Shown piece after piece: positions 5,398-33,593 of a DNA stretch of 43,531 bases. Source of the stretch: a virus. Where the stretch lies: positions 1-43,531 of IMG/VR virus record IMGVR_UViG_3300007515_000620, one strand, 5' to 3'. The notes under the pieces were generated by a model. The model searched no databases and was not told where the DNA came from. It saw nothing but the letters and a program-made list of their open reading frames with translations. The position numbers and the translations under genes were made by a program. The number at the start of each line of letters is the position of its first letter. The first letter of the stretch is position 1.

Positions 5398-6064
5398 TGA
5401 TAATGATTTTGTTATTCAAAGAATGTTGTCGACTGATTGGTTTGAAATTACAAAGCACCAGTATACTAATATAATTTTTGAAAATATTAATTTCGCAGAC
5501 CATGAAGAATTAACGTTACTGGATATCGGTTCACATTTGGGATTATGGACGATTCGAATAGCAGAACGATGTAAACTTTTAGATCTTAAATTTAAAGGAT
5601 ATTTGTACGAACCTTCTTCTAATAATGTTCAATGTTTAAAGAAAAATATTAAAACATTTTTAGATGATTGTGATATTGAAATTTATAATAACCTTGTAAG
5701 CGACCATAATTCTTATATGGAAGCCGCTGAACGTTTTAATGAAGGTTCATTCGATACTTTTTATTGTGGTAAATTAGTTCAATCTAAAATACCAGATCAT
5801 GATTTAAAAGGAATAAAGGTTATTATATTACCTTGTATGTCCACTGATTTTGAAATTTTACAATTATTTAAGAACACGTATTTACAAGAAGATGTTTTAA
5901 TTGTGGCCCAATTGATTGAAAAAAATTTAGCAAAAAATAATCATACAAGACAAGAAGTTATAGATTTTTTAAAAAGAAAAAAATTTAAAGTTAAAAAATA
6001 TGATTTTGATTATAGTCATTTAGATCCCCACTTAGAACATACATTTTTTATATTTTCAAAATGA
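5369..6064 (+). CDS. FkbM-like SAM-dependent methyltransferase
   Basis: 231 residues. LDIGSHLGLW (residues 51-60) is the class I methyltransferase motif I, and YLYEPSSNN (around residue 81) matches the acidic motif II of FkbM proteins (Y.fEP...N...L..N). The later TDFEILQLF also fits the FkbM TDFEIL/K..K region. The family O-methylates sugars and small molecules. The ATG at 5369 overlaps the dioxygenase gene by 29 bases; an ATG at 5426 is a fallback but would shorten the N-terminus. The next gene starts inside its last codons. Confidence 0.75.
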   Translation: MILENNFCINDNDFVIQRMLSTDWFEITKHQYTNIIFENINFADHEELTLLDIGSHLGLWTIRIAERCKLLDLKFKGYLYEPSSNNVQCLKKNIKTFLDDCDIEIYNNLVSDHNSYMEAAERFNEGSFDTFYCGKLVQSKIPDHDLKGIKVIILPCMSTDFEILQLFKNTYLQEDVLIVAQLIEKNLAKNNHTRQEVIDFLKRKKFKVKKYDFDYSHLDPHLEHTFFIFSK

Positions 6065-7134
6065 ATAATTTATGTAAGATTCCCTTTTTACACAAGTATA
6101 TTAATTTTATTGATACGAGTGAAAAGCCCTGTTGTATTTTTCAAGGTCAAGAACCAATTCTTGATGTTCAGAAAAAGTTTTTAAACAATGAAAGGCCCGA
6201 AGGATGTTCTGAATGTTGGAGAAGAGAAGATAATAATATTTTAAGTAAGAGACAGCATTTTAATAATTCATTTCCAGACCACAATATTAATTCAGGTATA
6301 AAAACATATGATTTGAGATTAGGTATTACATGCAATTTAAAATGTGTAATGTGTGGACCTCACTTATCTACAAAATGGAATGAAGATAAAAATATATTTG
6401 AAAAACATATTAATAAGATAAATGATACTCCTCATGAAATCGAAGAATTAAATTTTGATGAAGCAACAGAAATATATTTTGCAGGTGGAGAACCTTTTTA
6501 TATGAAAGAGGTTTATGATTGTTTATTGAAGTTATCAGAAAGAGAATTTAATCGAAAAAATACTAAAATTAGAATAAACACAAATGCTATTATTGATGAA
6601 GATAATAAAATTTTAAAGCTTTTAAACAATTTTGAAAAAATAGAATTTACTATTTCAGTTGAAGGAGTTGAAGAGGTTAATGATTATATCAGATATCCTT
6701 CTAAATGGAAGGACTTTTTAAAAGGAGTTAAATTGATTTATGAAATGTCTGATCAACCAAAAACTGTAGAAGAAATGTTTAAATGTAATAGAAGCGTGGC
6801 GTTTAATATAACGATAAGCTGTTTAAATCTCATGAATATTTTTACTTTATATAGTTGGTTATCTGATAAAAATTATTTGTATGTTGCTAATTTTGTAGAA
6901 GAACCAAAATTGTTGAATATTAATTCTTTAAAAATAAATGTGATAGATGATTTCTTATATGAGCACGAACGGTTCGATTACAAATATGATCATTTACAAG
7001 ATGTCGTAAAATATATTGAAGAAAATTATTCATATGATGAATCTTTAAATTCCAAAATGAAATTATACTTACAAGATCTCGATATAAAAAGAAATACAAA
7101 TAGTAAACAGCTATTAAATTGGTGCTGGGTATGA
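6061..7134 (+). CDS. Radical SAM protein with N-terminal twitch domain (rSAM 4)
   Basis: Radical SAM ligands are C91, C95 and C98 in CNLKCVMC; FAGGEPF is the GGE motif. N-terminal cysteines are C5, C24-C25, C49 and C52 (EKPCC, EGCSECWRRED). The CWRRED segment links it with rSAM 2 and rSAM 12. It is shorter at the N-terminus than rSAM 1. The start codon overlaps the FkbM gene by 4 bases. Confidence 0.87.
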   Translation: MNNLCKIPFLHKYINFIDTSEKPCCIFQGQEPILDVQKKFLNNERPEGCSECWRREDNNILSKRQHFNNSFPDHNINSGIKTYDLRLGITCNLKCVMCGPHLSTKWNEDKNIFEKHINKINDTPHEIEELNFDEATEIYFAGGEPFYMKEVYDCLLKLSEREFNRKNTKIRINTNAIIDEDNKILKLLNNFEKIEFTISVEGVEEVNDYIRYPSKWKDFLKGVKLIYEMSDQPKTVEEMFKCNRSVAFNITISCLNLMNIFTLYSWLSDKNYLYVANFVEEPKLLNINSLKINVIDDFLYEHERFDYKYDHLQDVVKYIEENYSYDESLNSKMKLYLQDLDIKRNTNSKQLLNWCWV

Positions 7135-8261
7135 GTGTATTTTGCAGTGCTCCCTTTAATGGATTTTATCAAGGACTAGATGGCAAGATATCTGTGTGTT
7201 GTCAAACTCCTGTTTTAGTTGATAATAAAAATAACTATAACGAGGCAGTTCATGATCCCAAAATAGTAAAATTAAGACAAGATTTCTTAAATGGTAGGCT
7301 ACCGGAAGAATGTAAGATGTGTACTCCGCGAGTCAGGCAAGAAACTACCAAATTATGTGGATCAAAAGATAAATCTCAAGTTGCGGCAGATTATTATGAA
7401 CCAGTATTTTTAGACCTCCTATGGTCAAATAAATGTAATTTTGCTTGTATGGGATGTACTCCTAGAATTAGTTCGACTATGTTGAAATATAAATCAGCGG
7501 TTGATATAGTTGATCCCCTAAATGAGGAAGATGCTAATTATAAATGGAATTCCAAAGATGAACAACAACGTAGAATAAATTATATTTTACAAAATATAAA
7601 AACAATAAAAGGAATACATTTGAATGGTGGTGAGCCTCTAATGCAAGAAGGTTTTTACGATTTATTAGAACGATTGATAGAACTTAACGCAACTCATATA
7701 GGAATTTGGGCTCATACTAACGGAAGTGTTTCACAATATAAAGGAAAAAATATTATAGATTTTTTAAAATCATTTGATAGATGTAAAATTGTAATGAGTC
7801 ATGATGGAATTGGAAAAAAAGGAGAATACGTAAGATATGGATTACAGCAATCTATTTGGTTAAGAAATTATAAGAAATTTTCAGAATCAGGAATTAAAAC
7901 AGATGTCCAAGTTTGTTATAATATTTTTAATTGTCTGGATTTAGAAGAAATGGCTGATTGGTATGAAGAGCATTTACAAGTTACACCTAATTTAAGTTTA
8001 TGGAATTGGCCCCCTTCGTATTCGGCAAAGTATATTAAAAGAATACCAAAATTATATGATAGAGCTTTACATATATTAGAAACACATGGAAAGAGATTTA
8101 GAAAATATGAATATGTATTGGATTTTATGAAGGACACCGTTGAAGATAAAGAACTCGAGGACATGCATTACAAGTTCAGTGAAAGTATATCCAAATTTGA
8201 TGAATTAAGAGGCACGGATTTTGAAACCACTTTTCCAGAATTGAGGGAATTGTATTATTAA
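7131..8261 (+). CDS. Radical SAM protein with N-terminal twitch domain (rSAM 5)
   Basis: Radical SAM ligands are C102, C106 and C109 in CNFACMGC; LNGGEPL is the GGE motif. N-terminal cysteines are C5, C23-C24 (ISVCCQ) and C61, C64 (EECKMC). The ATG at 7131 overlaps the preceding stop as ATGA, so it is preferred over the in-frame ATG at 7119. The C-terminal part holds a WNWPPSYS stretch not seen in the neighbours, so it may act on a distinct substrate. Confidence 0.86.
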   Translation: MSVFCSAPFNGFYQGLDGKISVCCQTPVLVDNKNNYNEAVHDPKIVKLRQDFLNGRLPEECKMCTPRVRQETTKLCGSKDKSQVAADYYEPVFLDLLWSNKCNFACMGCTPRISSTMLKYKSAVDIVDPLNEEDANYKWNSKDEQQRRINYILQNIKTIKGIHLNGGEPLMQEGFYDLLERLIELNATHIGIWAHTNGSVSQYKGKNIIDFLKSFDRCKIVMSHDGIGKKGEYVRYGLQQSIWLRNYKKFSESGIKTDVQVCYNIFNCLDLEEMADWYEEHLQVTPNLSLWNWPPSYSAKYIKRIPKLYDRALHILETHGKRFRKYEYVLDFMKDTVEDKELEDMHYKFSESISKFDELRGTDFETTFPELRELYY

Positions 8262-8827
8262 TGGAAAACGGATTTATTGTTTTAGATTTCGAAGAAGATT
8301 TGAATGATTATATAAAATCATTTGATACAAATACTTTTGAAGAATTATATTTGGAAAACACTTCTTGGAAATGTAAGATTAAAAAATTGAATGAAGGAAA
8401 GTTATTTGAAATACTTTGCAAATATGAAAAAATAGCTTTTGAATTATATGAAGAAATTCTAGATATAAAATTATCTCATCATATTAATTCGCAAGAAAGT
8501 TTATCCAGTATTATATATTATGATATTAATTCTGGATATCACGGAGACCATACTGATTATGGATTATTTAATATTGTGTTGAACGATGATAGTATGGATT
8601 GTATGTATTATAAAGATGATGAATGGAAATTAATTGAATCAAAAAATAAAATGATTATAATGAATGGTGAAAAAATTGAAGAGCTTTCAAACGGGAAATT
8701 AAAAGCAGTAAATCACAAAGTTATTAAACCTTATGGATTTGAAAGATACATTGTTACTAAAATATGTTATCCAAAAAATCAAAAAGAAGAACTTTCTAAA
8801 AAACAATCTAACTGGTTATCGATATGA
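8261..8827 (+). CDS. Isopenicillin N synthase-like Fe(II)/2OG oxygenase
   Basis: 188 residues. GYHGDHTDYGLFNIVLND contains the H97-x-D99 pair in the HxDYG.LT context typical of the plant/IPNS-type 2OG-FeII_Oxy family. The distal H152 lies in KAVNHKV (the family NHRV element) and R162 in GFERYIV would bind 2-oxoglutarate. At 188 residues it is shorter than typical full-length members (about 300), so it is close to the bare catalytic core. It is of a different subfamily from the TauD-like gene at 4483. The start overlaps the last base of rSAM 5, and the end overlaps the mini-ANL gene as ATGA. Confidence 0.75.
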   Translation: MENGFIVLDFEEDLNDYIKSFDTNTFEELYLENTSWKCKIKKLNEGKLFEILCKYEKIAFELYEEILDIKLSHHINSQESLSSIIYYDINSGYHGDHTDYGLFNIVLNDDSMDCMYYKDDEWKLIESKNKMIIMNGEKIEELSNGKLKAVNHKVIKPYGFERYIVTKICYPKNQKEELSKKQSNWLSI

Positions 8828-9432
8828 AAATAACTTTATATACAAGTGGTTCCACAGGACAAGCAAAAAAAGTAACGCATGACGAAAAAGATTTTTATTC
8901 TGCCGGTCATTGGTTAGTTGAAAAATGGCGATTAGATAATCGTGATGTTATTTTAAATCCTTTTCCAGCATGGACTGTAGCATGTTGGGCTTTTTGTATA
9001 ATACCAGCGAAAATAGCTCATTGTGATATAGTGAATATTAAAATGCAACCTTTGAAATTTTGGGATGTAGTGGAAGAAGTTAAACCGACATGCCTTACAT
9101 TAGCCGTCGGAACATGGCGAACTCTTGTTAAAAGGAAAAAACCAAATTTAGATTTTGTTAGAAATTTTTCTACTGGGTCTGCCCCTGTTACCGATCAGGA
9201 TATTTCATTAATGAAATCTACCGGAGCAAAAAATATTTGGAACATATATGGCTCTACTGAATGTATTCCTCCCGTGATGATATCAAATGATGCTACTTTT
9301 AATCTTAAAGAGTCACCGTATTATTTGGAATATGATAAGACATTATGGGTTAATGGGATTGATACAGGAGATAAATTTGAACGAGATCAATGTATCGGAA
9401 GACAACTTGTTAATGAAACTTGGAAAACATGA
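8824..9432 (+). CDS. Miniature adenylate-forming (ANL superfamily) protein
   Basis: 202 residues, compared with over 500 for normal acyl-CoA ligases or NRPS A domains. It begins almost directly at the ATP-binding P-loop (A3: LYTSGSTGQAKK, residues 5-16), then STGSAPV (117-122), then NIYGSTEC (A5, residues 140-147), and ends soon after GIDTGDK (A7, residues 178-184). The N-terminal subdomain and the whole mobile C-terminal domain, with the A8 hinge and A10 lysine, are absent. The motifs are intact, so this is not obviously a decaying pseudogene. It may activate a carboxylate as an acyl-adenylate, or need a partner. The ATG at 8824 overlaps the previous stop. Confidence 0.75.
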   Translation: MKITLYTSGSTGQAKKVTHDEKDFYSAGHWLVEKWRLDNRDVILNPFPAWTVACWAFCIIPAKIAHCDIVNIKMQPLKFWDVVEEVKPTCLTLAVGTWRTLVKRKKPNLDFVRNFSTGSAPVTDQDISLMKSTGAKNIWNIYGSTECIPPVMISNDATFNLKESPYYLEYDKTLWVNGIDTGDKFERDQCIGRQLVNETWKT

Positions 9433-10409
9433 ATATTAATGTTATCGAAATAGAATTATCTTCTTTATGTAATGCAAAGTGCTCGGCTTGCATGAGAACT
9501 ATTTTAGATAAAAGAGGAAAATATTATTATAAAGGAAATTTACCTTTAGATGATATAATGGATTGGTTCGAACCACTTGACATATCTAATACAAAAATTA
9601 AAATGTGTGGCGTACTGGGTGATCCGATGATCAATCCAGAATTATATGAAATTATATTTTATTTTTTATATGAAAAAAATGTTCGTGATCTTGAAATGTC
9701 CACAAATGGGGGAACCCGCTCTTCTCAATTTTGGAAGGACTTAGGTACACTATCAAAACAATCTGATAAAAGATTTTATATTCACTGGGCGGTTGATGGA
9801 GTTACAAAAAATGATTATAGGGAAAATGTTGCCCTTCATAGAGTATGGGATAATATTAATGCTTACCATTCTACTGGCGGCCATAGCATCTGGCAGTATA
9901 TCATTTTTGATTATAATGAAGACGAAGTTGAAATGGCTAGGCAGAAGGCAAAAGATAATGGAATGAAATTCGCTACCAGAGTGAGTTGGAGAAATACGTC
10001 TGAAAAAGCTAAGGTGACTTCTAAAGCAGCTAATAAGATAGATACTGATTCATATGAAGTAGTTGAAACAAGAGCTCGCGCAAAGCAATACGAAGAAGCC
10101 AGAATAATTTGTAGACATAAAGTAAAAGGCGAACTTTATATTGGTGCTAATAAAAGATTATGGCCCTGCTGTCATTTGTATGATGAATCAATTGCCCATA
10201 AAAATAATGATATAAAGCATTTATATGAGTCTATAGGCCACGATTTTAATGACTTGACTAAAAGATCAATTAATGATATAATAGAAAGTAATTGGTTTAA
10301 AAATGAGTTAGAAGAGAGTTGGAATAAAATGCATCCTTTGCATTTACCAAGATGTTATCTTACATGTGGTGATGGTGGAAAACGTGCGGTTATAAAAAAT
10401 GTGGAATAA
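9429..10409 (+). CDS. Radical SAM protein with C-terminal SPASM-like domain (rSAM 6)
   Basis: The radical SAM signature lies almost at the N-terminus: C14, C18 and C21 in CNAKCSAC. The usual GGE is replaced by MCGVLGDPM, a GDP variant shared in position with rSAM 7 and rSAM 13. C-terminal cysteines in IICRHK, WPCCHLYDES and CYLTCGDG form a SPASM-type auxiliary cluster domain. So this member has the opposite domain order from the twitch-first proteins. The ATG at 9429 overlaps the ANL stop as ATGA; an in-frame TTG at 9420 was not used. Confidence 0.86.
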   Translation: MNINVIEIELSSLCNAKCSACMRTILDKRGKYYYKGNLPLDDIMDWFEPLDISNTKIKMCGVLGDPMINPELYEIIFYFLYEKNVRDLEMSTNGGTRSSQFWKDLGTLSKQSDKRFYIHWAVDGVTKNDYRENVALHRVWDNINAYHSTGGHSIWQYIIFDYNEDEVEMARQKAKDNGMKFATRVSWRNTSEKAKVTSKAANKIDTDSYEVVETRARAKQYEEARIICRHKVKGELYIGANKRLWPCCHLYDESIAHKNNDIKHLYESIGHDFNDLTKRSINDIIESNWFKNELEESWNKMHPLHLPRCYLTCGDGGKRAVIKNVE

Positions 10410-11325
10410 TAAAACGATTGAATGGATTGATGTAGAATTAACTAGCTATTGTAATATAGCTTGTCCTGGTTGTCTCAGACAAGAAAAGAAAGAGCAAGTT
10501 GAATCCATTTTAAATAAAGATATTATCGAATTTGAAAATCTTAAAAGATGGATCACTCCTAAAGAATTTCCCAATCTTAAATTATTAAATTTTTGTGGAT
10601 CCGTAGATGAGCCGACTCTCCATCCAGATATATTAGATATTGTAAAACATTTTAAAACTTTTACAGATGTTAATATTGCATCTAATGGATCTACCAAAAC
10701 AAAAGAATTTTGGAAGAAGTTAGGTGAATTAGGGACTTCAGTATTTTTTGGATTAGATGGAATAGATCAGGAATCATTAGAAAAATATCGAATCGGTTCT
10801 AATTTTAAAAAAGTGCAAGAAAATTGGAGAGCCTTTATAGGAGCAGGAGGCAATGCAACTTGGCAGTTTATTGTATTTGACCATAATGAGCACTTATTTG
10901 ATGATGCAGAAAGAATGTCAGAAGAGGAAGGGTTTAAAAGATTCAGAGCAATATTTTCTCATAGAGGAGGAAGTGGCGAAGTAAAAAAAGAAGTAGAAGA
11001 AGAAAAAGAAATTCGATGTAAATATGGAAATCAAAAAAGGATATTTATAAATCACTCCGGTGCAGTTTTACCATGTTGTTATTTAAATTCTGAAGCTTTA
11101 GAAATGTTAGCTACCAGAAAAAGAAAAACAAAATTTGGAAAAATATATGAAGGCGCCGGCGGAGTGCTTGCTAACAATTTAAGATATAATACCATATCAG
11201 AAGTTATAGATGGTGAAATGTTCGATCTTATACAAAAATCCTGGGAATGGCCAGACCCAGTAGAAAAATGTTGGAAGACTTGTAAAGTCAAAAAAAGAGA
11301 TGTGTTTATAGACAAGGAGATATAA
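10399..11325 (+). CDS. Radical SAM protein with C-terminal SPASM-like domain (rSAM 7)
   Basis: Radical SAM ligands are C18, C22 and C25 in CNIACPGC. The GGE position reads FCGSVDEPTLHP. The C-terminal block has a cysteine in IRCKYG, a pair in LPCCYLN and CWKTCK, which is a SPASM-like pattern parallel to rSAM 6; the two are tandem relatives. A proline-glycine pair inside the signature (CPGC) is common in SPASM maturases. The gene overlaps rSAM 6 by 11 bases and abuts the PP-loop gene by one base. Confidence 0.86.
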   Translation: MWNNKTIEWIDVELTSYCNIACPGCLRQEKKEQVESILNKDIIEFENLKRWITPKEFPNLKLLNFCGSVDEPTLHPDILDIVKHFKTFTDVNIASNGSTKTKEFWKKLGELGTSVFFGLDGIDQESLEKYRIGSNFKKVQENWRAFIGAGGNATWQFIVFDHNEHLFDDAERMSEEEGFKRFRAIFSHRGGSGEVKKEVEEEKEIRCKYGNQKRIFINHSGAVLPCCYLNSEALEMLATRKRKTKFGKIYEGAGGVLANNLRYNTISEVIDGEMFDLIQKSWEWPDPVEKCWKTCKVKKRDVFIDKEI

Positions 11326-12104
11326 TGATCTTTAATGTGAATAATACAAAAGTTGAAGTACTCATACCTGACACAGTACCAAAACTTAAACCGGAACTTG
11401 CAGATCAATTATACGCTAATCATGAACCGAATGAAATATATGAAATTCTCAGAGACTATAAAAGAAAAGATCATTATGAAAAATCTGTGAATACTGTTGG
11501 AATATGGATGTCCGGAGGAGCTGATAGTTCATTATTAGCTTATGTATTAGCAAAGAAAATCAAAGATGAAAATTTAGATATTAAAATTCAACCATTATCA
11601 GTTAGAAGAGGTCGGCCTAATAATCCAATATATGCTGGCAATGTAATTGATTTTATTGAGGAAGATTTAGATATTAAAATGAATGAACACATCGTTTATT
11701 ATCCGCCAATGGAAGATGAACATTATAGGGAAATACAAATTTTTCAAGATAAGGATAATGAAAATTTCAAAATAGATTTATTTCAAATATTATATTCTGG
11801 TATAACATGTAATCCGCCCTCTGATGATAAAAGTATTCCTAGGAACAAAGAACGAACTAGAGATGAAGAAGCTGAAAGAAAATTAGTAACGTATAATGGT
11901 ATTCGTTATTATATGAATCCTTTTTTCTGTATAAACAAACGTGGATTAAAAATGATTTACGAAGAATTAGGATTGATTGATAAATTATTCCCAGTAACTT
12001 ATAGTTGCGAAGGGACGGCTGAACAAACTAAAACGCATACACAACATTGTAAAAGATGTTGGTGGTGTCAAGAAAGATTTTGGGCTTTTGGAAGATATGT
12101 CTAA
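11325..12104 (+). CDS. QueC-like PP-loop ATPase
   Basis: 259 residues. MSGGADSS (residues 62-69) is the N-type ATP pyrophosphatase P-loop. The C-terminus carries SCEG ... HCKRCWWCQER, which parallels the CGRCPSCSER zinc site of the true QueC encoded at 25808, including the trailing ER. An internal region (TRDEEAERKLVTYNG) is not QueC-like, and overall similarity to the window's QueC is limited to these landmarks. The fold activates a carboxylate or carbonyl by adenylation for amide, nitrile or thio transfer. Its position among radical SAM genes rather than with folE and queC suggests a separate role. Confidence 0.75.
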   Translation: MIFNVNNTKVEVLIPDTVPKLKPELADQLYANHEPNEIYEILRDYKRKDHYEKSVNTVGIWMSGGADSSLLAYVLAKKIKDENLDIKIQPLSVRRGRPNNPIYAGNVIDFIEEDLDIKMNEHIVYYPPMEDEHYREIQIFQDKDNENFKIDLFQILYSGITCNPPSDDKSIPRNKERTRDEEAERKLVTYNGIRYYMNPFFCINKRGLKMIYEELGLIDKLFPVTYSCEGTAEQTKTHTQHCKRCWWCQERFWAFGRYV

Positions 12105-13515
12105 TATTTGCTATTATTCTCTAACAGGAATAAATTATAAAAATCAATTTATAACTTCTTGTGCTATTAATTCTGATAGGTTAGTTAAATTTTCAGAAAC
12201 AATATTACCATCTCAAGTATTTAATTCACAAAATTTTAAAAATTTAAGAAAAAAATTATGTGAGGGAAATTGGTCATCCGGTTGCCATTTATGTGAAGAC
12301 ATTGAAAAAAATCCAAATGCATTTTCAATGAGACAAGATTATGTATTTGAAGATGGTAAATTCGAACACGAAGAAGAAGATTATGTTTATAATTATTATG
12401 ATCCCTCTACCGGGTCTATGGACCCGAAAGGATGTAGACATATTGAAATGAGATTCAGTAATGTATGCAATATGAGTTGTTTACATTGTAGCAGTGTATT
12501 TTCTACAGGATGGCAGAAAAAATTAGAAACATATAAAACAGACGAAGAAGATGAAAAATATAATTTAGAGCAACTTCTCAATACGTTACACTTAGTCGGA
12601 GACGAAGACAAAAAAAGATTAGGTTTAAATTTAAATGATATTAAAAAGATTTGTGAAGATTTAAATAATAATTTTCCTAATATTAATAGGGTTGAAATAT
12701 CTGGTGGAGAGGTTTTAATACAAAGGCAGTTTTATCGCTTTTTAGAAATGTTATCAGATCATCCTAATCGCAAGAATATTACCATTTCATTTTATAGTAA
12801 TTTTAATTCAGATTTTGATATTGAATATTTAACTAAATTATTGAATAATTTTGGAAAGAGTGTGATATCTATATCTATAGATTCAAGTGAAAACATTTAT
12901 CCATATTTTAGAGATGGTAATTGGGAGGTTTTAAAAAATAATATATTAAAGTTCAGAGAGATTAATAAGTTCACACAGTTAGATGGAGTAGTTACATTTT
13001 CTGCTTATCAGTTCATGGACATATATAATGTTTATAAATCTATTATTTCTTTAAATTTACATCATATTAAAACGTCATTAGTACAAACGCCAAAATATTT
13101 AAATCCATGTGTTTTATTATTTGATTATGAAAAGGAATTGAGAGAAGATTTTAAGGAAACTCAAAAAATGATATATGATCTATATGAATCTCGAATGGAA
13201 AATATTCAAGAATTTAAAAAAGATAATATAGGTGTAACTATTGAAAAAAGAGAAACTGGATTAGAACCAGAACAAAAAGAAGAAGGTATACGAGGACAAT
13301 TTTTAAAAGGTGAATATGTTTTTTCGGATCTTGATTCTGGTTTGTGGTATTTAAATAATGCCGGTCATTATATTTTTAATAAAAAGAATTCTAATTATAT
13401 GAATTATAATTCATTTTTAATTTATATAAAAAAATCTGATAACCACACAGGTCAAAATTTTAATGAATATTTTACTAAATTTAAATATATCGATGAAGAA
13501 ATTATTAGGGTTTAA
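12097..13515 (+). CDS. Radical SAM protein, NSD/ETILPS subfamily, long form (rSAM 8)
   Basis: 472 residues. Radical SAM ligands are C124, C128 and C131 in CNMSCLHC; ISGGEVL is the GGE motif. The N-terminal region TSCAINSDRL-VKFSETILPSQV-...-WSSGCHLC aligns with rSAM 3 and rSAM 9. It has an acidic insertion between twitch and barrel (around residues 85-110) and a C-terminal extension ending in NEYFTKFKYID. The ATG at 12097 was chosen over an in-frame TTG at 12088; it overlaps the end of the PP-loop gene. Confidence 0.86.
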   Translation: MSNICYYSLTGINYKNQFITSCAINSDRLVKFSETILPSQVFNSQNFKNLRKKLCEGNWSSGCHLCEDIEKNPNAFSMRQDYVFEDGKFEHEEEDYVYNYYDPSTGSMDPKGCRHIEMRFSNVCNMSCLHCSSVFSTGWQKKLETYKTDEEDEKYNLEQLLNTLHLVGDEDKKRLGLNLNDIKKICEDLNNNFPNINRVEISGGEVLIQRQFYRFLEMLSDHPNRKNITISFYSNFNSDFDIEYLTKLLNNFGKSVISISIDSSENIYPYFRDGNWEVLKNNILKFREINKFTQLDGVVTFSAYQFMDIYNVYKSIISLNLHHIKTSLVQTPKYLNPCVLLFDYEKELREDFKETQKMIYDLYESRMENIQEFKKDNIGVTIEKRETGLEPEQKEEGIRGQFLKGEYVFSDLDSGLWYLNNAGHYIFNKKNSNYMNYNSFLIYIKKSDNHTGQNFNEYFTKFKYIDEEIIRV

Positions 13516-14865
13516 ATGAAAGAATGTTTTTACGCATTAGGCGGCCTTAATTATAAAAATGGTTTTATTACAACTTGTCCGCGGCAGGCTGATCAATTAG
13601 TATTCGCGAACGAAACTACTTTACCATCTGAAATATATAATCATGAAAATATAAAAGAACTTAGAAGAAAATTATATAATGATCAATGGCCATCCGGTTG
13701 TGATACATGTGAAGATATGGAACGAGATGGTTTAAGATCTATGAGATTAGATTTTTCACTTATAGATAATTGGTTTTATAAATCAGAATTTAAAGAAAAA
13801 AGAGAAGGGTCAAATCGAAATAGATTTGCCGAACAAATAATTGTTCGCGAACCGTTTGATAATCTGATGAGTTTATATAATGACAAAACTCACGAAGTAG
13901 GATTTAAAGGATTGCGACATGTAGAAATTAGATTTAGTAATGCTTGTAATTTTGCTTGCTTACACTGTTCAAAAGTTTTTTCTACAGGATGGTCTAGAAA
14001 ATTACAAAACTATGTACCGGATAAAGAAGTATTAGAACATGATTTAAAACAACTCAGAGGAACTGAACACAGGCACGGACCAGATGATAAAGGTGAAATA
14101 CAATTAAGCACAGAGAATGCATTAAAAATTATAGAAGATTTAAATGAAAATTTTCCAAATGTAGAATTTATTGATTTTGCTGGTGGTGAATTATTATATC
14201 AAAAACAATTTTTTCCAACACTTAGAAAGTTAGCAGAACATCCTAATGCAAAAAATATGTTAATATCTTTTCATACAAATTTTAATGCAGATTTTAGTGT
14301 GGAAGAATTAACTGAAGCTTTAAAACCCTTTAACGAGACCTGCATCATTATCTCAGTTGATTCAGGAAGAAATACTTATCCATACTTCAGGCACGGTGGA
14401 AATTGGGATAAATTAAAACAGAATATACGAGATTTTAAAAAAATAAATACTTTTACACATATTGATGTAAGTATTACAACTTCGGTTTATCAAATACTGG
14501 ATCTTTATGATGTTTTTGATTCTATGTTAGAATTAGATTGTCACTTGGATGCTTCCATCGTACAATCGCCACCTTATATAAATCCATCTATATTAATGCA
14601 TAAGTTTAAAGAAGAAGTGATTGGAGATTTTGAAAAAACTTTTGATATGTTATTTGATTCAAATTCAAAATATATCGAAGGTGAAAGAGGTGCAAAGGCT
14701 TGGTTAAAATATATTTTTGATTATATTCTTAAAACAAACATAGATGAAAAACAATATAATAAATTTTTAGTCTATAGAAAAAAGTCTGATAAAATATGGC
14801 AACAAAATTTTAATGACTATTTTAAAAATTATCAAATTGTAAATAACGAGTTAGTACGTGCTTAA
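13516..14865 (+). CDS. Radical SAM protein, NSD/ETILPS subfamily, long form (rSAM 9)
   Basis: 449 residues. Radical SAM ligands are C144, C148 and C151 in CNFACLHC; the GGE motif reads FAGGELL. It shares with rSAM 8 the N-terminal QADQLVFANETTLPSEI and GCDTCED blocks, the CLHCS-VFSTGW run after the cluster, and a C-terminal extension ending in NDYFKNYQIVNNELVRA. These features mark a tandem duplication of rSAM 8, since diverged. It starts directly after the rSAM 8 stop. Confidence 0.86.
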   Translation: MKECFYALGGLNYKNGFITTCPRQADQLVFANETTLPSEIYNHENIKELRRKLYNDQWPSGCDTCEDMERDGLRSMRLDFSLIDNWFYKSEFKEKREGSNRNRFAEQIIVREPFDNLMSLYNDKTHEVGFKGLRHVEIRFSNACNFACLHCSKVFSTGWSRKLQNYVPDKEVLEHDLKQLRGTEHRHGPDDKGEIQLSTENALKIIEDLNENFPNVEFIDFAGGELLYQKQFFPTLRKLAEHPNAKNMLISFHTNFNADFSVEELTEALKPFNETCIIISVDSGRNTYPYFRHGGNWDKLKQNIRDFKKINTFTHIDVSITTSVYQILDLYDVFDSMLELDCHLDASIVQSPPYINPSILMHKFKEEVIGDFEKTFDMLFDSNSKYIEGERGAKAWLKYIFDYILKTNIDEKQYNKFLVYRKKSDKIWQQNFNDYFKNYQIVNNELVRA

Positions 14866-15769
14866 AGTTTTAACTAATAATGGTTTAAAATCTTGTAACG
14901 ATCAAACCATTAAAGATAGAACCAATTTTAAAGGATGGTATTGCCGGCAGACGAATTATATTATTGATGCCGCCTGGTGGGAAGTTGGAACAGCTGTGTG
15001 CAGAACCCCTTATCCTGTTTCTATAGATGAATATTCAGGACCCAAAGTGATAATGTGTCCTAATGAGAATTGCTTCTGTGGAACCGATATAGCTATGCCA
15101 AAAGGAAAAACAGAAGATCATTTATTAATGCTTCACTGTATGAAAACAAAAGATAAGTTAGAACCCGAAGATGAAATTTATGCTATAGATAGTGATGAAG
15201 GTAGAGTAGTTGATTATTATACAGACCGAAAGTGTAATTTTAGTTGCTCTTATTGTGATCCACGAAGCCATGATTATACTGGAGAATTAACATCATTAGA
15301 AAGAATGAAGGAGGCATGGACAAAAGTTAATCCTCAGAATGTTTCTAAAATAAATATCTCAGGAGGAGAATCAACATTAATCCCACACTACTTAGATTTT
15401 GTAAAATGGTTAAAACAACGAGAGCCTAAAGCAATAATATGGACTTTAACCAATGGCACCAGACAAGTACCTTATTTAAGAGAGTTAAATAGATACTCAT
15501 TAATAAATTTTTCAATCCATCCTGAATTTATTAATGATAGATATATTAATAAGTTGGAAAGATTTTGTGAAGAAATACAATTACCCTGTAAAATGAAAAT
15601 AATGTATTTACCAAAATTTGAAGATATAGTAAATAAGGTATATGAAAGATTTAAAGACAAATTTAAAAAGCTTTATGTTAAGACTGTGCCTCTATGGGAT
15701 ATGAATAATAACATGAAATTAATGAATTATACACCTGAACAGTTTAAATTTATTCATGCGACTCAGTGA
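14858..15769 (+). CDS. Radical SAM protein with cysteine-rich N-terminal extension (rSAM 10)
   Basis: 303 residues. Radical SAM ligands are C126, C130 and C133 in CNFSCSYC; ISGGEST is the GGE motif. The 120 residues before the barrel hold at least seven cysteines (C13, C29, C48, C67, C72, C74, C94), including CPNENCFCG, which could bind an extra cluster or zinc; the pattern is unlike the twitch block of the others. The start is GTG, overlapping the rSAM 9 stop by 8 bases; no ATG is available nearby. Confidence 0.82.
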   Translation: MLKVLTNNGLKSCNDQTIKDRTNFKGWYCRQTNYIIDAAWWEVGTAVCRTPYPVSIDEYSGPKVIMCPNENCFCGTDIAMPKGKTEDHLLMLHCMKTKDKLEPEDEIYAIDSDEGRVVDYYTDRKCNFSCSYCDPRSHDYTGELTSLERMKEAWTKVNPQNVSKINISGGESTLIPHYLDFVKWLKQREPKAIIWTLTNGTRQVPYLRELNRYSLINFSIHPEFINDRYINKLERFCEEIQLPCKMKIMYLPKFEDIVNKVYERFKDKFKKLYVKTVPLWDMNNNMKLMNYTPEQFKFIHATQ

Positions 15770-16784
15770 AGAAGATTTTACAAAAATACCGTGGAAGGAT
15801 ATCGAAGCCCTTGGTACAAAAACAATGTTGTATCGGGACACATTTACAGTATCTTGGTTATTAGGTAGATTTTGTAATTACAGATGTTCTTATTGTTGGC
15901 CATATGCCAGATCAGATAAAAAAGATCATAGACCAACTGAACTTTGTATTAAAACTATTGATGAAATAAAGAGACAAGCAAGAGAACAAGGATTTAATTC
16001 TTTTAACTGGTCTTTATCCGGTGGCGAACCCACTTTTCATCCAGGTTACTTAGATATATTACAACATCTCGCGGATGATGAAGAAAATTGTAATCGTCAG
16101 CGTATACATATGACTTCAAATTGTTCTCGTAACTTGAAGTGGTTTGAGACTTATGTTAAGTATGCTCAAAAATTTAATAAAGCTTCGATTACAGCTTCCG
16201 CTCACTTTGAACATTTGGACACACAAGATAAAATAGCTAACTTTGCTGATAAGTTAGTTTTTCTTCAAGATAATGGAATTAGAATAACAATTAATATGGT
16301 TATGATCCCGGAAAGATTCTGGACATTGACAGAACATGTTTTATATTTTAAAGATCGTGGTATACACACAACATTAAAACCACAATCTAATCCTACAGCA
16401 ACGAAAGTTGTAGACGGATATACTCAAGGGCAATTAGAAATTTTACATAATGACTCTAGACCAACAGATCTCGAAATAGATTTAATAGATTCCAAAGGAA
16501 ACATATATGAAGTGGATCAAGCCGAGAGATTTAATGCGTTTAATTTTAATGAATTCAAAGGCTGGATCTGCTCGTCGGGTTTTCGTAGTATTATTATACG
16601 CGAGCCTTGCGGGAGCATTAAGCGGTCATATTCTTGCTCTGATGACCCTTTAGGAAATATTGAAACAGGGTTTAAATTATTTGATAAACCCATGCCTTGC
16701 ATAACCGATAATTGTGTTAGCTCCGCAGATAGTAAAATTCCAAAAAGAAAACCTGAGAATAAATTTCCCCTATGGAAAAATTAA
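15756..16784 (+). CDS. Radical SAM protein with C-terminal cysteine cluster (rSAM 11)
   Basis: 342 residues. Radical SAM ligands are C40, C44 and C47 in CNYRCSYC; LSGGEPTFHPGY is the GGE motif in its most canonical form here. At least five cysteines follow the barrel (WICSSG, REPCGS, YSCSDD, PCITDNC), consistent with an auxiliary site. The CSYC motif links it to rSAM 10, and the two overlap by 14 bases, so they may act as a pair. No twitch domain precedes the barrel. Confidence 0.85.
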   Translation: MRLSEEDFTKIPWKDIEALGTKTMLYRDTFTVSWLLGRFCNYRCSYCWPYARSDKKDHRPTELCIKTIDEIKRQAREQGFNSFNWSLSGGEPTFHPGYLDILQHLADDEENCNRQRIHMTSNCSRNLKWFETYVKYAQKFNKASITASAHFEHLDTQDKIANFADKLVFLQDNGIRITINMVMIPERFWTLTEHVLYFKDRGIHTTLKPQSNPTATKVVDGYTQGQLEILHNDSRPTDLEIDLIDSKGNIYEVDQAERFNAFNFNEFKGWICSSGFRSIIIREPCGSIKRSYSCSDDPLGNIETGFKLFDKPMPCITDNCVSSADSKIPKRKPENKFPLWKN

Positions 16785-17890
16785 AAAATTTCTGCGCACT
16801 CCCTTTTACTCAATTTACAGTTTCTTCATTTAATGAATACCAGTTATGTTGTGATAACTCGGGTGAATCTAAAATGTTCAGTAATAAAAATTCTATTTTA
16901 GAATATTTTAATTCTGATTATATAAATGATAAAAGAAAATCTTTTTTAGAAGATAAAAGATTAGATATATGTCAATCTTGTTGGAAACGAGAAGATCGCG
17001 GTTTAAATTCCAGAAGGATAACAGGGTTAACTAGTGATTATAAAGAACAAGTAGAAAGATATAAAAAGGGTTTATCTTTAGTTCCCAATCATCCTGTTTT
17101 CAAAATTAAATTTGGAAATTTATGTAATCTTAAATGTATGATGTGTGGTCCTCAATCATCATCTGCTTGGGCGCAGCATAAAGAAAAACATAATGAAGGA
17201 ACTTGGCCAATATATGAAAATACATTTGATGAACAAACATATGAAGATTTAAAACAAATTTTACCTAATGTAAATCGTATTATTATATCGGGCGGGGAAC
17301 CCTTAATGAACGATAGGTATTATGATTTTTTAGAATGGCTTATAGGTCATAAGTTCGCTAACAAATTAAAAATAACAACCCTTACTAATGCTACAAAAAT
17401 ACCAGATCATTTATTCCAATATAAAAAAGCCTTTAAACGATTATCTTTTAATATATCAATTGATGGTATAGAAAAGAAAGATGAATATATTAGAACAGGA
17501 ACTGTTTGGAAAAAAAAGATTGAGAATATTAAAAAATTACAATCGGCTTATGATATAGGATTTGAAATTACAGTCCAAACATTAAATGTAGGGTACTTAG
17601 ATGATATTCAAATTTATTTAAAAGAAAATTTTAATAAGACATCACCATTATCAAATATTTTAGTGACACCTAGTTATTTTGCTGTTGACTGTTTACCTAA
17701 TCCGATAAAACGAGACTATCAGCAAAAGAGTCAAAGATATATTACTGAAGATATTTCGAATTTATTAAAACTGAATGTTCCACCTGATAATAATCTTTTT
17801 ATCGAAGGAATAAAATTTCTTAAATTATGTGATAAAAGAAATAAAACTAATTTACTTAATGAATGGCCGGAGTTTGAAGGATTTTATTAA
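16772..17890 (+). CDS. Radical SAM protein with N-terminal twitch domain (rSAM 12)
   Basis: 372 residues. Radical SAM ligands are C118, C122 and C125 in CNLKCMMC; ISGGEPL is the GGE motif. N-terminal cysteines are C8, C26-C27 (YQLCCD) and C67, C70 (CQSCWKREDRG). The CxxCWKREDRG block is nearly the same as in rSAM 2 (CKVCWDKEDRG), placing both in the same subfamily with rSAM 4. It overlaps rSAM 11 by 13 bases. Confidence 0.87.
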   Translation: MEKLKNFCALPFTQFTVSSFNEYQLCCDNSGESKMFSNKNSILEYFNSDYINDKRKSFLEDKRLDICQSCWKREDRGLNSRRITGLTSDYKEQVERYKKGLSLVPNHPVFKIKFGNLCNLKCMMCGPQSSSAWAQHKEKHNEGTWPIYENTFDEQTYEDLKQILPNVNRIIISGGEPLMNDRYYDFLEWLIGHKFANKLKITTLTNATKIPDHLFQYKKAFKRLSFNISIDGIEKKDEYIRTGTVWKKKIENIKKLQSAYDIGFEITVQTLNVGYLDDIQIYLKENFNKTSPLSNILVTPSYFAVDCLPNPIKRDYQQKSQRYITEDISNLLKLNVPPDNNLFIEGIKFLKLCDKRNKTNLLNEWPEFEGFY

Positions 17891-29694: not shown

Positions 29695-32010
29695 TTATTT
29701 CCTCTTTTTGATTGGATCTCGACGTGCATTCGCATCTGTTTGTGTAACTGTGGGCATTGTAAAATTTTGTGTATTGTTATTCTGATTAGATTGAATGAGG
29801 TTCCCTGATTGTGACGCTGATTTCGCATCTGCGAGCGCTGCTTTTTGTTTTTCCGCTTCTATTTCTTTTTCTCTAAGTTTTGCCCATTGATCCTCTCCCA
29901 CTTTTGCGCGTATTTTAGCTCTCTCTTCCATTTCATCTGATAGTAACATGCCGGCAACTGTTGTATTGCCTTGTTTTATTAAACTCGCGCCCATCATTGT
30001 CATAATGTTATCCCAACTTAGGAAATTCATTAGCTTATCCCAAATATTGGATATTGCTTCTCCGAGATATGAAAATAAATTTTTAATACCGTTAAACAAT
30101 GAAAAATTTCCATCGGCGTCTCTTAAATTTTCATCAATAAATTTTACTGCATTATCAAAACCCATTTTTTCTAATATCCAAGCGACGGCTTCACCTAAGA
30201 GATTTGGAATAAACATTAATACATCATCAAATATAGATTCTATTCCGGCCCCTATCGCTCCAGTAATTCCGCCTTCTTCATAACCTTTCATAACATTTGA
30301 TATAACATCAAATGCAGAAAATAGAATCCCAATAGGTATAAAAATTCTACCGAAAATCTTACCGATTACTTTTACAACTTTTAATATTCCTTTTATTGGT
30401 TTCATCCAATCACCCAATGGAGAAACTATAGCTTTAAATGTTTTAGCAACTTTAGTGAAAACTCCTTCTGGACCAAATGCCGCGGCTGTTGAAGCCTTAA
30501 TACTTTTAAACATTTCGGTCGGCTTAGCTAGAGAATCCGGACTTAAAAAACCCATAGTACCAAAACTTAATACATTTGTTAGTTTAAAAAATCCTTTCGT
30601 AATCTTCCACAAAGTTCCTAATACATTATCTATTCCAGTTAGGAAACCTGTTTTCATTTTCATTAAGGTACTGCCTTCATCAAACATTGGCATCTTAAAA
30701 AAGTTTCCCATTTTTCCACTAAAATTAGTTTTTGCTTTAGAAACAGCCTCACTTATATCATCACCTATGTTGAAAATTTTACCTTTCAATTTAGAAAACA
30801 TGCCTTGTTTTTTTAATTCAACACCGTCAACGTCTGATGGATCTAATCCTAACATTTTTAATTGTTTAGCGAAGAAAGATTCTTTTGCAATTTTGCTAGC
30901 ATCAACAGCGCCTTCGCCTATATCTAACATTTTAGATTGGGTTTTTAGGAATTTTATTTTATCAGCTTTTGATAAATCAGCGGCGTCATCAGCCCAGGCC
31001 AACATTTTAGATTGATCTTTTAGAAATTTGACTTTAGTTTTATCTATACCATCTGTATGTTCCGCCATCCATGATAACATTTTGGATTGCTTTTTCAAGA
31101 ATTTGGCTTTATCTGTATCTGCTATACCTTCTGCCTGATCTGCCCACTTCAACATATTTTGTTGCATATTCATAAATTTTAATTTATTCGCATCTGTCAA
31201 TTTTTCGGAATCACCGGCCCATGCTAACATTTTACTTAATTGTTTGGAAAAATTTCCTTTCCAACTTTTCGACGTAGCCTCTGTAGCATCATCAAATTTT
31301 AAATATTTCTTTATATTATCAAAAAAACCTGTTTTATTTTTTGAGAGTTCATCTGGGAATGATTGATTAAATCCAAAATATTTTCCTAACTTAAAAAAGA
31401 ACCCACTCTTTTTTACTTTAAGATCATCAATTGCTTTAGTATCATCGGCAAAACCGAAAAAACTTTTTAATTTTGAAAAGAAACCAGCTTTTGGCTTACC
31501 CATCTCATCTAAAGTTTTTCCTCCAGTGTTCCACCAATCTCCCCACTTAGTTTTAAAAGCTAAAAATCCAGCACCCATTGCTGCGAAAGTACCAGTAAGT
31601 ATTCCGGCGGCATCTGCCCAACCCAATTCTAAGTCACCTTTGCTATCAGTCCCACCACCTCCGGGTTTTCCATCTTTCTTCATCCGCGCGGCTTCCATGG
31701 CGGCTTCTAATCTTTTGCGTTCAGCATCTTTTGTGAAATCTAAATAATCTTTAAAAAGATTTGCGGTTAGAAGTGTATTTGCACCGACGTTTTGTAGTAA
31801 ATTGTTACTTAGATCATTCCCGCGAACCACGCTTGTAAAATGCGAATCCTGTTTATCAAAATTAGATTTCATTTGATTTACCATCATCGCACCAGTCACG
31901 CCATCCGCATTTAAATGAGAAGAGACTTCATCCTGCCACGCTTTGCGCGAAGCCATTTCATTGGGATCAGTTTTTGTTACACCTTGTACGTTAACCGTTT
32001 CTTCAGCCAT
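29695..32010 (-). CDS. Tail tape measure protein with 25-residue repeats
   Basis: 771 residues, rich in K, A, G and F. The N-terminal 110 residues are helical. From residue 176 to about 454 it is built of about eleven tandem units near 25 residues long, each opening with an aromatic pair or F-L/F-x-K (for example FLKKQSKMLSW, FLKDQSKMLAW, FLKTQSKML). Hydrophobic segments follow (around 135-155 and 570-640, IFGRIFIPIGILFSAFDVI), as is normal for tape measures. It stands directly after the frameshifting gp26 gene, the universal place for a tape measure. It sets tail length and is later ejected. AAGGA lies 8 bases before the ATG. Confidence 0.85.
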   Translation of the reverse strand: MAEETVNVQGVTKTDPNEMASRKAWQDEVSSHLNADGVTGAMMVNQMKSNFDKQDSHFTSVVRGNDLSNNLLQNVGANTLLTANLFKDYLDFTKDAERKRLEAAMEAARMKKDGKPGGGGTDSKGDLELGWADAAGILTGTFAAMGAGFLAFKTKWGDWWNTGGKTLDEMGKPKAGFFSKLKSFFGFADDTKAIDDLKVKKSGFFFKLGKYFGFNQSFPDELSKNKTGFFDNIKKYLKFDDATEATSKSWKGNFSKQLSKMLAWAGDSEKLTDANKLKFMNMQQNMLKWADQAEGIADTDKAKFLKKQSKMLSWMAEHTDGIDKTKVKFLKDQSKMLAWADDAADLSKADKIKFLKTQSKMLDIGEGAVDASKIAKESFFAKQLKMLGLDPSDVDGVELKKQGMFSKLKGKIFNIGDDISEAVSKAKTNFSGKMGNFFKMPMFDEGSTLMKMKTGFLTGIDNVLGTLWKITKGFFKLTNVLSFGTMGFLSPDSLAKPTEMFKSIKASTAAAFGPEGVFTKVAKTFKAIVSPLGDWMKPIKGILKVVKVIGKIFGRIFIPIGILFSAFDVISNVMKGYEEGGITGAIGAGIESIFDDVLMFIPNLLGEAVAWILEKMGFDNAVKFIDENLRDADGNFSLFNGIKNLFSYLGEAISNIWDKLMNFLSWDNIMTMMGASLIKQGNTTVAGMLLSDEMEERAKIRAKVGEDQWAKLREKEIEAEKQKAALADAKSASQSGNLIQSNQNNNTQNFTMPTVTQTDANARRDPIKKRK
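30649..31485 (-). repeat. About eleven 25-residue repeats in the tape measure gene
   Basis: Six consecutive units (residues 279-428) are exactly 25 residues long; flanking units are 25-27. Most begin with F or G-F-F/N-F-S and have K near positions 3-4 and 7, with hydrophobic residues at 8-9. DNA identity between units is low to moderate, so the repeat is kept at protein level. Confidence 0.85.
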
Positions 32011-32023
32011 TTATTATTCCTTG

Positions 32024-32928
32024 TTATTGATTTCTATATTTAGCTGCTTCTTGTTCCATTCTTTCGTTTTCTTCTTCAATAAATTCTAATAATAATGTAA
32101 GATATATTTCTCTTTCATAACAAATTAAATTTTCTAGCTCAGCTAAGCTCCATTTATGACTTTGAACTATAGCGAATAGAGTTCTATAATAGTTATGTAA
32201 ACTATTATGACTGAGCGCTAGCCGAAAAAAGATTGTAGCCCCTCCAAGACTACATCTTGTTTTTTATTACATTTTTGACAAGTAAAATTTAATGTATGCC
32301 TTAATTTTGGCATAGTATTAAAAAATGCAATGATCTTTCCGAATTGCTGTTGATTTAAAGACATAATAAAATCTTCTAATTCTTTTTCTGTGTAATCTTT
32401 AATATCATGCATTTCCGTACCATCTTGAATTGTATCTATGCACGCTTTAGTTATTTCAAAAATAGAATCCATTTGAGATTCATCAGGAGGCCTTGTCATC
32501 CTATCAATGTCAGGATATTTTAATTTAACTTTTATTTTTTCAGTTAGTTCTACTACATCATGATGGCCTTTTCCGGTTTCTAAAGAAACATCATCAAGAT
32601 CAATTTTGGTTGGCGTTTGACCTTCACAATCTTTATTTTTACAAGTCAAATTAATTTCAACATTTTGTCCAACTGATCGTGCTCTTAAATTTAGAAAAAA
32701 TAATTCTATATCAAAAGCAGGAAGTTTTTCAACTTCAATATCATCCGTAAGACAACAATTTTTAATGATTTCTTTTGTGGCTCTTACAATATCACCTGTA
32801 TCGCCACCCTCTAAGGCAGTTAATAGAATCTTTTCTTCTTTAACTAAAAAGGGCCTATATTTTATTTTTTGATCCACACTATGTAATTTAAGTTCATATG
32901 TGGGATTATTCACGGTTGGTAAAGCCAT
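32024..32928 (-). CDS. gp26 frameshift fusion product (tail assembly chaperone, long form)
   Basis: A -1 shift at the T-TTT-TTC slippery site joins the first 235 residues of gp26 to a 66-residue extension in the -1 frame, giving 301 residues. The extension reads RLALSHNSLHNYYRTLFAIV, then QSHKWSLAELENLICYERE, and ends KYRNQ. It has no ATG, GTG or TTG start near its beginning, yet is open for 66 codons and runs to just before the tape measure gene. HKWSLAELENL..YERE resembles the W..EL/I..m...ER motif of other phage tail chaperone extensions. By analogy with lambda G/GT, a small share of ribosomes would make this form, which contacts the tape measure. Confidence 0.85.
32218..32928 (-). CDS. 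gp26: T4 gp26-like baseplate/tail assembly chaperone, short form
   Basis: 236 residues. It fits the T4_baseplate (gp26) family: an N-terminal domain with KEEKILLTALEGGDTGDI, then a zinc ribbon formed by C96, C101, C217 and C220 (LTCKNKDCEG and FTCQKCNKKQD). T4 gp26 is needed for hub assembly. Its last codons, TCT TTT TTC GGC TAG, contain the frameshift site, so this is the main, unshifted product. A GGAG ribosome site lies before the ATG, in the short gap after the tube gene. Confidence 0.85.
   Translation of the reverse strand: MALPTVNNPTYELKLHSVDQKIKYRPFLVKEEKILLTALEGGDTGDIVRATKEIIKNCCLTDDIEVEKLPAFDIELFFLNLRARSVGQNVEINLTCKNKDCEGQTPTKIDLDDVSLETGKGHHDVVELTEKIKVKLKYPDIDRMTRPPDESQMDSIFEITKACIDTIQDGTEMHDIKDYTEKELEDFIMSLNQQQFGKIIAFFNTMPKLRHTLNFTCQKCNKKQDVVLEGLQSFFG
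32224..32230 (-). promoter_or_regulatory. Programmed -1 ribosomal frameshift site
   Basis: On the - strand the heptamer TTTTTTC is read T-TTT-TTC in the gp26 frame, the X-XXY-YYZ form, two codons before the TAG. A perfect 9-bp hairpin (ATAATAGTT, loop TACAT, AACTATTAT) begins 15 bases downstream and may stimulate the shift; the spacing is longer than the usual 5-9. Confidence 0.85.
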
Positions 32929-32963: not shown

Positions 32964-33593
32964 TTACGGGGCCAATCCGGATTCCGTTAGTTCCTGTCCG
33001 GTTTCTTTTACAAATTCATTCGGGACTGTATAACCTCCGGCACCGGATACCGGTTCCCATCTTTTATAATGAAACGTCACATTAAATTTTCCTACTGTAT
33101 TCGTCTGATCCCAGCCCAAAGTAATTGGATCAACTACTGTTGGAAATGCTTCTAAATATTTAACCCCGGATGTTGCTTCTGATGGGCTCACGGACGATGA
33201 ATCCTGGGCGAACATATAAACAGTGATTTGACCTTTGTATTCGGATTGGTATGATATGTCTCCGGAAATTGGATCAACAGCCGAATCTATCCACTTTAAA
33301 AATCCATGTCTAACTATGTGGGAATTTGTTAATATAAATCCTAATGAAATTTCCCCGTAGGTTTGTTCTCTTGCTATTTTTCGGGTAGGCCCATAATGTC
33401 TTAATTCAGAGGTTGCTACCGTTCTTCCCGGCATTGGAACTGTATCACAATGATATAATGTATCTTCCCCTTGTGGCCAGTCTGCCTTGCTACCTTTGGG
33501 AAAAGTGATTTGAGCAGCAAATCTATTTAAAGGAGCCAGTCCTTTATGTTTATCTATAGACGATACAAATTTATCTACTGAAAACTGGTCCAT
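32964..33593 (-). CDS. Tail tube fold protein, likely gp54-like baseplate tube initiator
   Basis: 209 residues. LAPLNRFAAQITFP, VPMPGRTVATSELRHYGPTRKIAREQTYGEISLGFI and WIDSAVDPISGD are the blocks shared by T4 gp19 tail tube and gp54 tube-initiator proteins. Placement beside gp4, gp26 and the tape measure favours gp54, but the length is nearer gp19 (163) than gp54 (320). It would join the inner tube to the baseplate hub. The gene overlaps its upstream neighbour by one base. Confidence 0.7.
   Translation of the reverse strand: MDQFSVDKFVSSIDKHKGLAPLNRFAAQITFPKGSKADWPQGEDTLYHCDTVPMPGRTVATSELRHYGPTRKIAREQTYGEISLGFILTNSHIVRHGFLKWIDSAVDPISGDISYQSEYKGQITVYMFAQDSSSVSPSEATSGVKYLEAFPTVVDPITLGWDQTNTVGKFNVTFHYKRWEPVSGAGGYTVPNEFVKETGQELTESGLAP

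Follow-up and report, generated by a model that had tools for sequence, protein, structure and literature searches.

Organization of the gp26 junction

Does the gp26-like gene of a T4-type phage end at its stop codon, or does it encode a second, longer product that is reached by a change of reading frame? The question was raised by a viral record of 43,531 bases (hereafter the window, meaning the whole stretch of DNA analyzed), for which an initial annotation had proposed a programmed −1 frameshift on the plan of lambda G/GT. Our analyses of this junction and its relatives indicate that one gene very probably makes two tail assembly chaperones by means of a −1 slip. The record, which may be a fragment, contains one gp26-family place, and the relevant features are as follows.

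32964..33593, minus strand: tail tube-type protein, the upstream neighbor (phrog_45)
32218..32928, minus strand: gp26-like gene, encoding the short form (T4_baseplate, PF12322; phrog_150)
32239..32245, minus strand: Shine-Dalgarno-like GGAGGGG, candidate upstream stimulator (sequence; enrichment in relatives)
32230-32224, minus strand: slippery heptamer T TTT TTC in the X XXY YYZ phase, followed by the single sense codon GGC and then the stop
32218..32220, minus strand: zero-frame stop TAG of gp26 (sequence)
32024..32230, minus strand: −1 frame extension, the C-terminal part of the long form, of 68 codons including two Phe and then TAA (phrog_634)
32186..32208, minus strand: 9-bp A/T-rich hairpin, weak candidate downstream stimulator, 15 nt past the heptamer
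29695..32010, minus strand: 771-aa ORF in the tape-measure position (identity assigned from position, without a family match)

The gp26-like gene (window 32928-32218) encodes 236 aa and matched PF12322 at 6.7e-65. Its final codons are CAA TCT TTT TTC GGC TAG, and the heptamer at 32230-32224 is in the phase that the initial annotation had described, with GGC before the TAG. The −1 frame likewise proved to be open for 66 codons beyond the two Phe, up to a TAA at 32026-32024, and to offer no usable start, given that no ATG, GTG, or TTG occurs before codon index 57 of 68. The 771-aa ORF starts at 32010, 13 nt past the extension stop, and is preceded by AAGGAA. In a genome of 32% GC, the heptamer by itself carries little weight: the 75 window ORFs of at least 60 aa contain 246 in-phase A/T-type slippery heptamers. 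Of these 246, five have a stop no more than 11 codons away, and that of gp26 is the sole one with a −1 extension of more than 8 codons. Conservation among relatives settles the reality of the site and places it well beyond chance.

Conservation of the slippery site

We compared 119 junctions, comprising the window, 16 of the 17 contigs of one search, all 80 of another, and 22 named phages; this number includes contigs L004 and L005, which match the window at 100% identity across gp26. Outside the set are L019, whose contig ends before the junction, Stenotrophomonas phage IME-SM1 (L107), which has five T, and two loci with a two-gene layout (L116 and L003). Such an alignment of gp26 junctions had been suggested as a check in the initial annotation, and it demonstrated that both the slippery site and the extension are kept, with an in-phase T TTT TTY at 112 of 119 junctions. 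After duplicates were collapsed by a 72-nt key, 96 distinct sites remained, among which L004 stands for the window. The Phe-Phe codons are TTT TTC in 94 of these and TTTTTT in two; elsewhere in gp26, the TTTTTC spelling is used for 3 of 95 Phe-Phe pairs. The third base of the preceding codon is T at every one of the 96 sites (63% expected), and the residue encoded there is Ser at 60, Asp at 14, Ala at 12, and Asn at 10.

We considered that the homopolymer might stem from an error of sequencing or assembly, in which case the gene would in truth be an in-frame fusion. Errors probably do occur at this site, as IME-SM1 has five T (approximately 4215-4225) against six in its sister phage Mendera (L117), and its annotated gp26 runs on in another frame owing to the shorter run, which is probably a sequencing error. 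In addition, gp26 of contig L072 (2001-2891) continues in frame into the extension through TCT TTT TGG TTA GGA, a natural fusion of 297 aa; the short form would not be made there, unless the fusion is itself an assembly error. Against such an artefact, six T and an early stop recur in many separately sequenced isolates and contigs, the 112 junctions agree, and the flanking GAGGG and stem (described below) likewise show selection. This explanation is scarcely credible and was rejected, except as the probable cause of the five-T run of IME-SM1.

The seven junctions without T TTT TTY are those of L072, Vibrio K475, Vibrio 1.255.O, Dickeya phiDP10.3, Serratia Kevin, Menlow, and Marshall. An intact extension without the slippery heptamer, one of two conditions given as refuting in the initial annotation, does occur in part: six distant relatives (Ackermannviridae and Vibrio K475) have the extension and no canonical heptamer, and the group of the window is unaffected; these six limit the reach of the T TTT TTY signal, not its presence in the window's group. 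The gp51-like −1 frame extension is conserved in Ackermannviridae, for which 282 records match, and no canonical slip site was found upstream of it in the four loci L111, L112, L118, and L119. Ahead of the extension, these loci have G GTT TTC (Serratia Kevin), A ATT TTC, or G ATT TTC, in each case followed by AT[TC] TAA. We take the G GTT TTC of Serratia Kevin to resemble the T7 gene 10 site.

Start codons and annotation of the extension

The extension of the window matched phrog_634, annotated as "baseplate hub assembly catalyst" (cyanophage gp51), at 6.1e-25, and matches to it were found in 462 of 50,697 phage records. In P-SSM4, a 61-aa gp51 is annotated directly after gp26 in the −1 frame, and gp26 ends with TTT TTC GCA TAG. 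Of the 23 annotated records examined that have the single-gene layout, 15 give the extension a separate CDS, eight omit it (S-WAM1, G2, ACP17, IME-SM1, Menlow, Marshall, Aeh1, and S13), and none joins it to gp26. The earlier remark that gene callers easily miss the extension thus applies to the eight records, whereas the other 15 list it as a CDS of its own, and it is known as the cyanophage "gp51".

These annotations amount to reading the extension as a small gene in its own right (gp51), with its own start, and the poly-T as incidental. With codons counted from the first T of the heptamer, an ATG occurs within the first 13 codons in 60 of 94 complete heptamer-bearing extensions, and a TAATG overlap without the canonical heptamer is present in Dickeya phiDP10.3, Vibrio 1.255.O, and K475, both of which would suit a separate gene. 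However, 17 of the 94 extensions have an ATG only at codons 13-21, two have only a GTG or TTG start, and 15 have no ATG, GTG, or TTG within 22 codons, while the heptamer is present in all 94. Because some extensions have no start codon, a separate gene cannot account for these, whereas frameshifting accounts for all. The other condition given as refuting in the initial annotation, a start codon of the extension's own in relatives, also occurs in part, and the many relatives that do have an ATG nevertheless keep the heptamer; in cyanophage-type relatives, the ATG annotated as the gp51 start falls inside a covarying stem. Moreover, conservation in the −1 frame extends to the codons that precede the ATG (FFR), and a full-length fusion is seen in T4 gp51. 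A separate gene was rejected for the window, which has no start codon before index 57, and is very unlikely as an account of the extension.

Elements flanking the slippery site

Frameshifting at the heptamer might be aided by elements on either side of it. On the upstream side, the GGAGG ends 10 nt before the window heptamer, and GGAGGGG is invariant among the 10 sequences of the window's group alignment. Across relatives, the Glu codon at position −15, present in 86 sites, is spelled GAG in 74 of them, compared with a background of 28% elsewhere in gp26 (p 1e-28, a value that is overstated and indicative only, as the relatives' sequences are not independent). The Gly codon that follows is GGG in 30 of 95 cases (background, 7%), and a final G is found in 42 of 78 Leu codons that precede, against 27% elsewhere; in combination, the enriched Leu-Glu-Gly codon choices form GGAGG 10 nt before the heptamer. 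For 71 of 96 loci, fewer than 5% of gp26 windows elsewhere pair with the 16S tail as well as the upstream element does, and the anti-Shine-Dalgarno signal is poor in some heptamer-bearing phages (D479, Mendera, ACP17, and pf16). A 9-bp hairpin predicted just 5' of the slip site (window approximately 32236-32256, minus strand) would cover part of the GGAGG.

On the downstream side, the 50 nt 3' of the heptamer are more structured than gp26 controls, with a mean z of −2.27 (94 loci) compared with −0.54. In 52 cyanophage-type loci, of the 54 marked as such by script, an 11-bp stem starts 5 nt past the heptamer, and 92.8% of its cells are paired compared with 25-48% when the partners were slid. 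One pair of this stem covaries (UA22/AU14/GC13), joining the third base of an Ala codon with the middle base of a Glu, Val, or Ala codon, so that pairing in the stem is retained at the cost of changes in the protein.

The 9-bp hairpin that the initial annotation had placed downstream of the heptamer in the window is present (arms 32208-32200 and 32194-32186, loop TACAT), and a role for it as a stimulator fared less well: it lies 15 nt away, shows little covariation, and is weak. The spacer is longer than the usual 5-9 nt, eight of the nine pairs are invariant among the 10 sequences of the group, one pair covaries, and the hairpin is broken in one sequence (L016). We therefore rejected it as a proven stimulator, given the eight pairs that never vary and the broken pairing of L016. 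It is also built from the AAT/TAT codons of a conserved His-Asn...Tyr-Tyr stretch, which counts against a stimulator role.

Relationship to gp26 and gp51 of T4

T4 gp26 and gp51 belong to the same family as the window protein. Residues 3-248 of T4 gp51 (249 aa) aligned to the gp26 profile phrog_150 at 2.6e-84, and its C-terminus matched phrog_634 at 1.2e-23; T4 gp26 aligned only to the part that corresponds to the short form. T4 gp51 consists of the gp26 domain plus the extension and is thus the long form encoded as a gene in its own right, so that T4 has two genes where the window has one gene and a slip. T4 differs in that the short and long forms are encoded by two genes on opposite strands, and its gene 26 ends with GAG TTC TTT GAG TTA CTA TAA, with no slip heptamer and a closed −1 frame.

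An unrooted tree of 37 proteins placed the gp26/gp51 pairs of T4 and Acinetobacter outside the 33 single-gene proteins (split 88/83), and KVP40, Aeh1, and S13, which are assigned to Straboviridae in their records, fell among the single-gene proteins and carry the heptamer. This tree would fit, without proving, a duplication that replaced the slip. On balance, we lean towards a broader scenario, in which a frameshifting gp26-gp51 gene is widespread in T4-like phages and the T4 state arose by duplication, fusion, and loss of the slip. The cyanophage "gp51" would then be the tail of a frameshift product under a three-part signal (Shine-Dalgarno-like element, T TTT TTC, and covarying stem), with residues of the extension changing to keep the stem.

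The available portion of a 2010 comparison described cyanophage and marine vibriophage gp51 as lacking the first ~200 residues and Aeh1 as lacking gp51 (PMC3037559). Frameshifting would explain why gp51 of the former phages is approximately one-fifth the length of T4 gp51, as the remainder would be gp26, reached by the slip; the reported absence from Aeh1 (PMC3037559, as excerpted) would be explained likewise by a slip from gp26. The annotation would be corrected for a large group, as the extension is matched in 462 of 50,697 records and none of the 23 examined joins it to gp26.

Predicted fold and proposed chaperone function

To obtain structural information, we used an AlphaFold model of the natural L072 fusion (mean pLDDT 82), which is 40% identical to the window protein; the model was built from an alignment without extension fragments, which misaligned. 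The closest solved fold was the HK97 tail assembly chaperone 2ob9 (Z 7.2, rmsd 4.0, 84 aligned), followed by 3fgx (Z 7.1), 3klu (Z 6.5), and 5ir0 (Z 4.6), all other matches listed having a Z of 3.2 or less. We take 3fgx and 3klu to be chaperone relatives. The matched part of the model comprises residues 1-95. Similarity to PDB entries is modest, in that Foldseek alone gave 2ob9 at E 1.0 and ranked an unrelated chain first at E 0.13. A sequence search of solved structures with the gp26 profile returned one irrelevant match (E 0.18) and no solved chaperone.

The initial annotation had named the next gene as the tape measure gene. A large ORF does occupy this slot, and its identity would follow from position, as no tape-measure family match for the 771-aa ORF was found in the family searches. 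In Vibrio D479, the corresponding slot holds a gene with a match to a tape-measure phrog (2e-10), and the 771-aa ORF matched this D479 gene weakly (E 0.003).

The products of frameshifting might instead be baseplate-hub assembly factors for gp27, gp5, and gp29 rather than tube and tape-measure chaperones of the lambda G/GT type. A T4 review, in the part available, counts gp26 as well as gp51 among the hub assembly chaperones, with gp51 essential and of unknown function (PMC3004832), and the N-terminal fold nearest to that of the HK97 tail chaperone and the position ahead of a long ORF in the tape-measure slot argue against this assignment. We regard a role confined to the hub as unlikely, though deserving of more weight than a separate gene or an artefact. 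The two views would be compatible if the hub client were the tape measure gp29. That gp26 and its shifted form are tail assembly chaperones, as first proposed, is supported by the comparison with T4 gp26/gp51 and by the N-terminal fold.

Proposed mechanism and comparison with known systems

The site, its phase and conservation, the homology of the extension, and the relation to T4 gp26/gp51 described above are evident from the sequences; the slipping itself, its rate, the stimulators that act, and the chaperone action are what we infer. For most ribosomes, translation would end at the TAG and yield the short form, gp26, of 236 aa. A fraction would slip back by one base on T TTT TTC, where the two Phe-tRNAs would re-pair from TTT TTC to TTT TTT; the slipped ribosomes would read on beyond the stop for another 66 residues, producing the long form, gp26 plus "gp51". 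Pairing of the GGAGG, approximately 10 nt upstream, with 16S rRNA is probable and would aid the slip, and a downstream hairpin may do so in many relatives, more doubtfully in the window. In analogy to lambda gpG/gpGT, the tape-measure protein and the tube subunits would be handled by both products in a fixed proportion. The sequences give good support to a −1 frameshift signal that is conserved and would provide a short and a long tail assembly chaperone, and the proposal of a lambda G/GT-type frameshift in the gp26 gene draws its support from comparative evidence of this kind.

The arrangement resembles lambda gpG/gpGT and its HK97 and P2 equivalents in having a short form and a predicted −1 frameshifted long form ahead of a putative tape measure gene. 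It differs from these in its larger short form (236 aa), its T TTT TTC heptamer, and its upstream Shine-Dalgarno-like element; the lambda slip site is given as G GGA AAG in the accessible text of one report (PMC7618472). It further differs in that gp26 has no sequence match to solved chaperones; the closest solved fold to its N-terminal domain is that of the HK97 chaperone. In the excerpt available, the −1 signal of Escherichia coli dnaX comprises a Shine-Dalgarno-like element, a heptamer, and a downstream stem-loop (PMC6787027). The window shares with dnaX a Shine-Dalgarno-like element upstream of the heptamer, here a GGAGG at 10 nt that is enriched across relatives, and differs in its heptamer (A AAA AAG in dnaX) and its doubtful downstream element.

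Vladimirov, Gautam and Davidson reportedly identified the tail assembly chaperones of T4-like phages in 2022 (Virology 566:9-15). The accessible sections of the PRFect paper describe a short gene and a fused long gene in some T4-like phages (PMC10885494), and those of the Adele paper cite Vladimirov et al. 2022 for poly-T slip sites in T4-like TAC-N genes (PMC12846349). Judging from these excerpts, the core idea of T4-like tail assembly chaperones with a poly-T slip is already in print. None of the searchable literature, which excludes the full text of Vladimirov et al. 2022, was found to describe the upstream element, the covarying stem, the mis-annotation, or the Ackermannviridae variant.

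Other genes in the window

Elsewhere in the window, the plus strand at 739-17890 carries at least five radical-SAM genes (739-1920, 7119-8261, 10399-11325, 12088-13515, and 16772-17890), which looks unusually dense for a T4-type phage. A TauD-type dioxygenase gene (4483-5397, plus strand) lies within this stretch.
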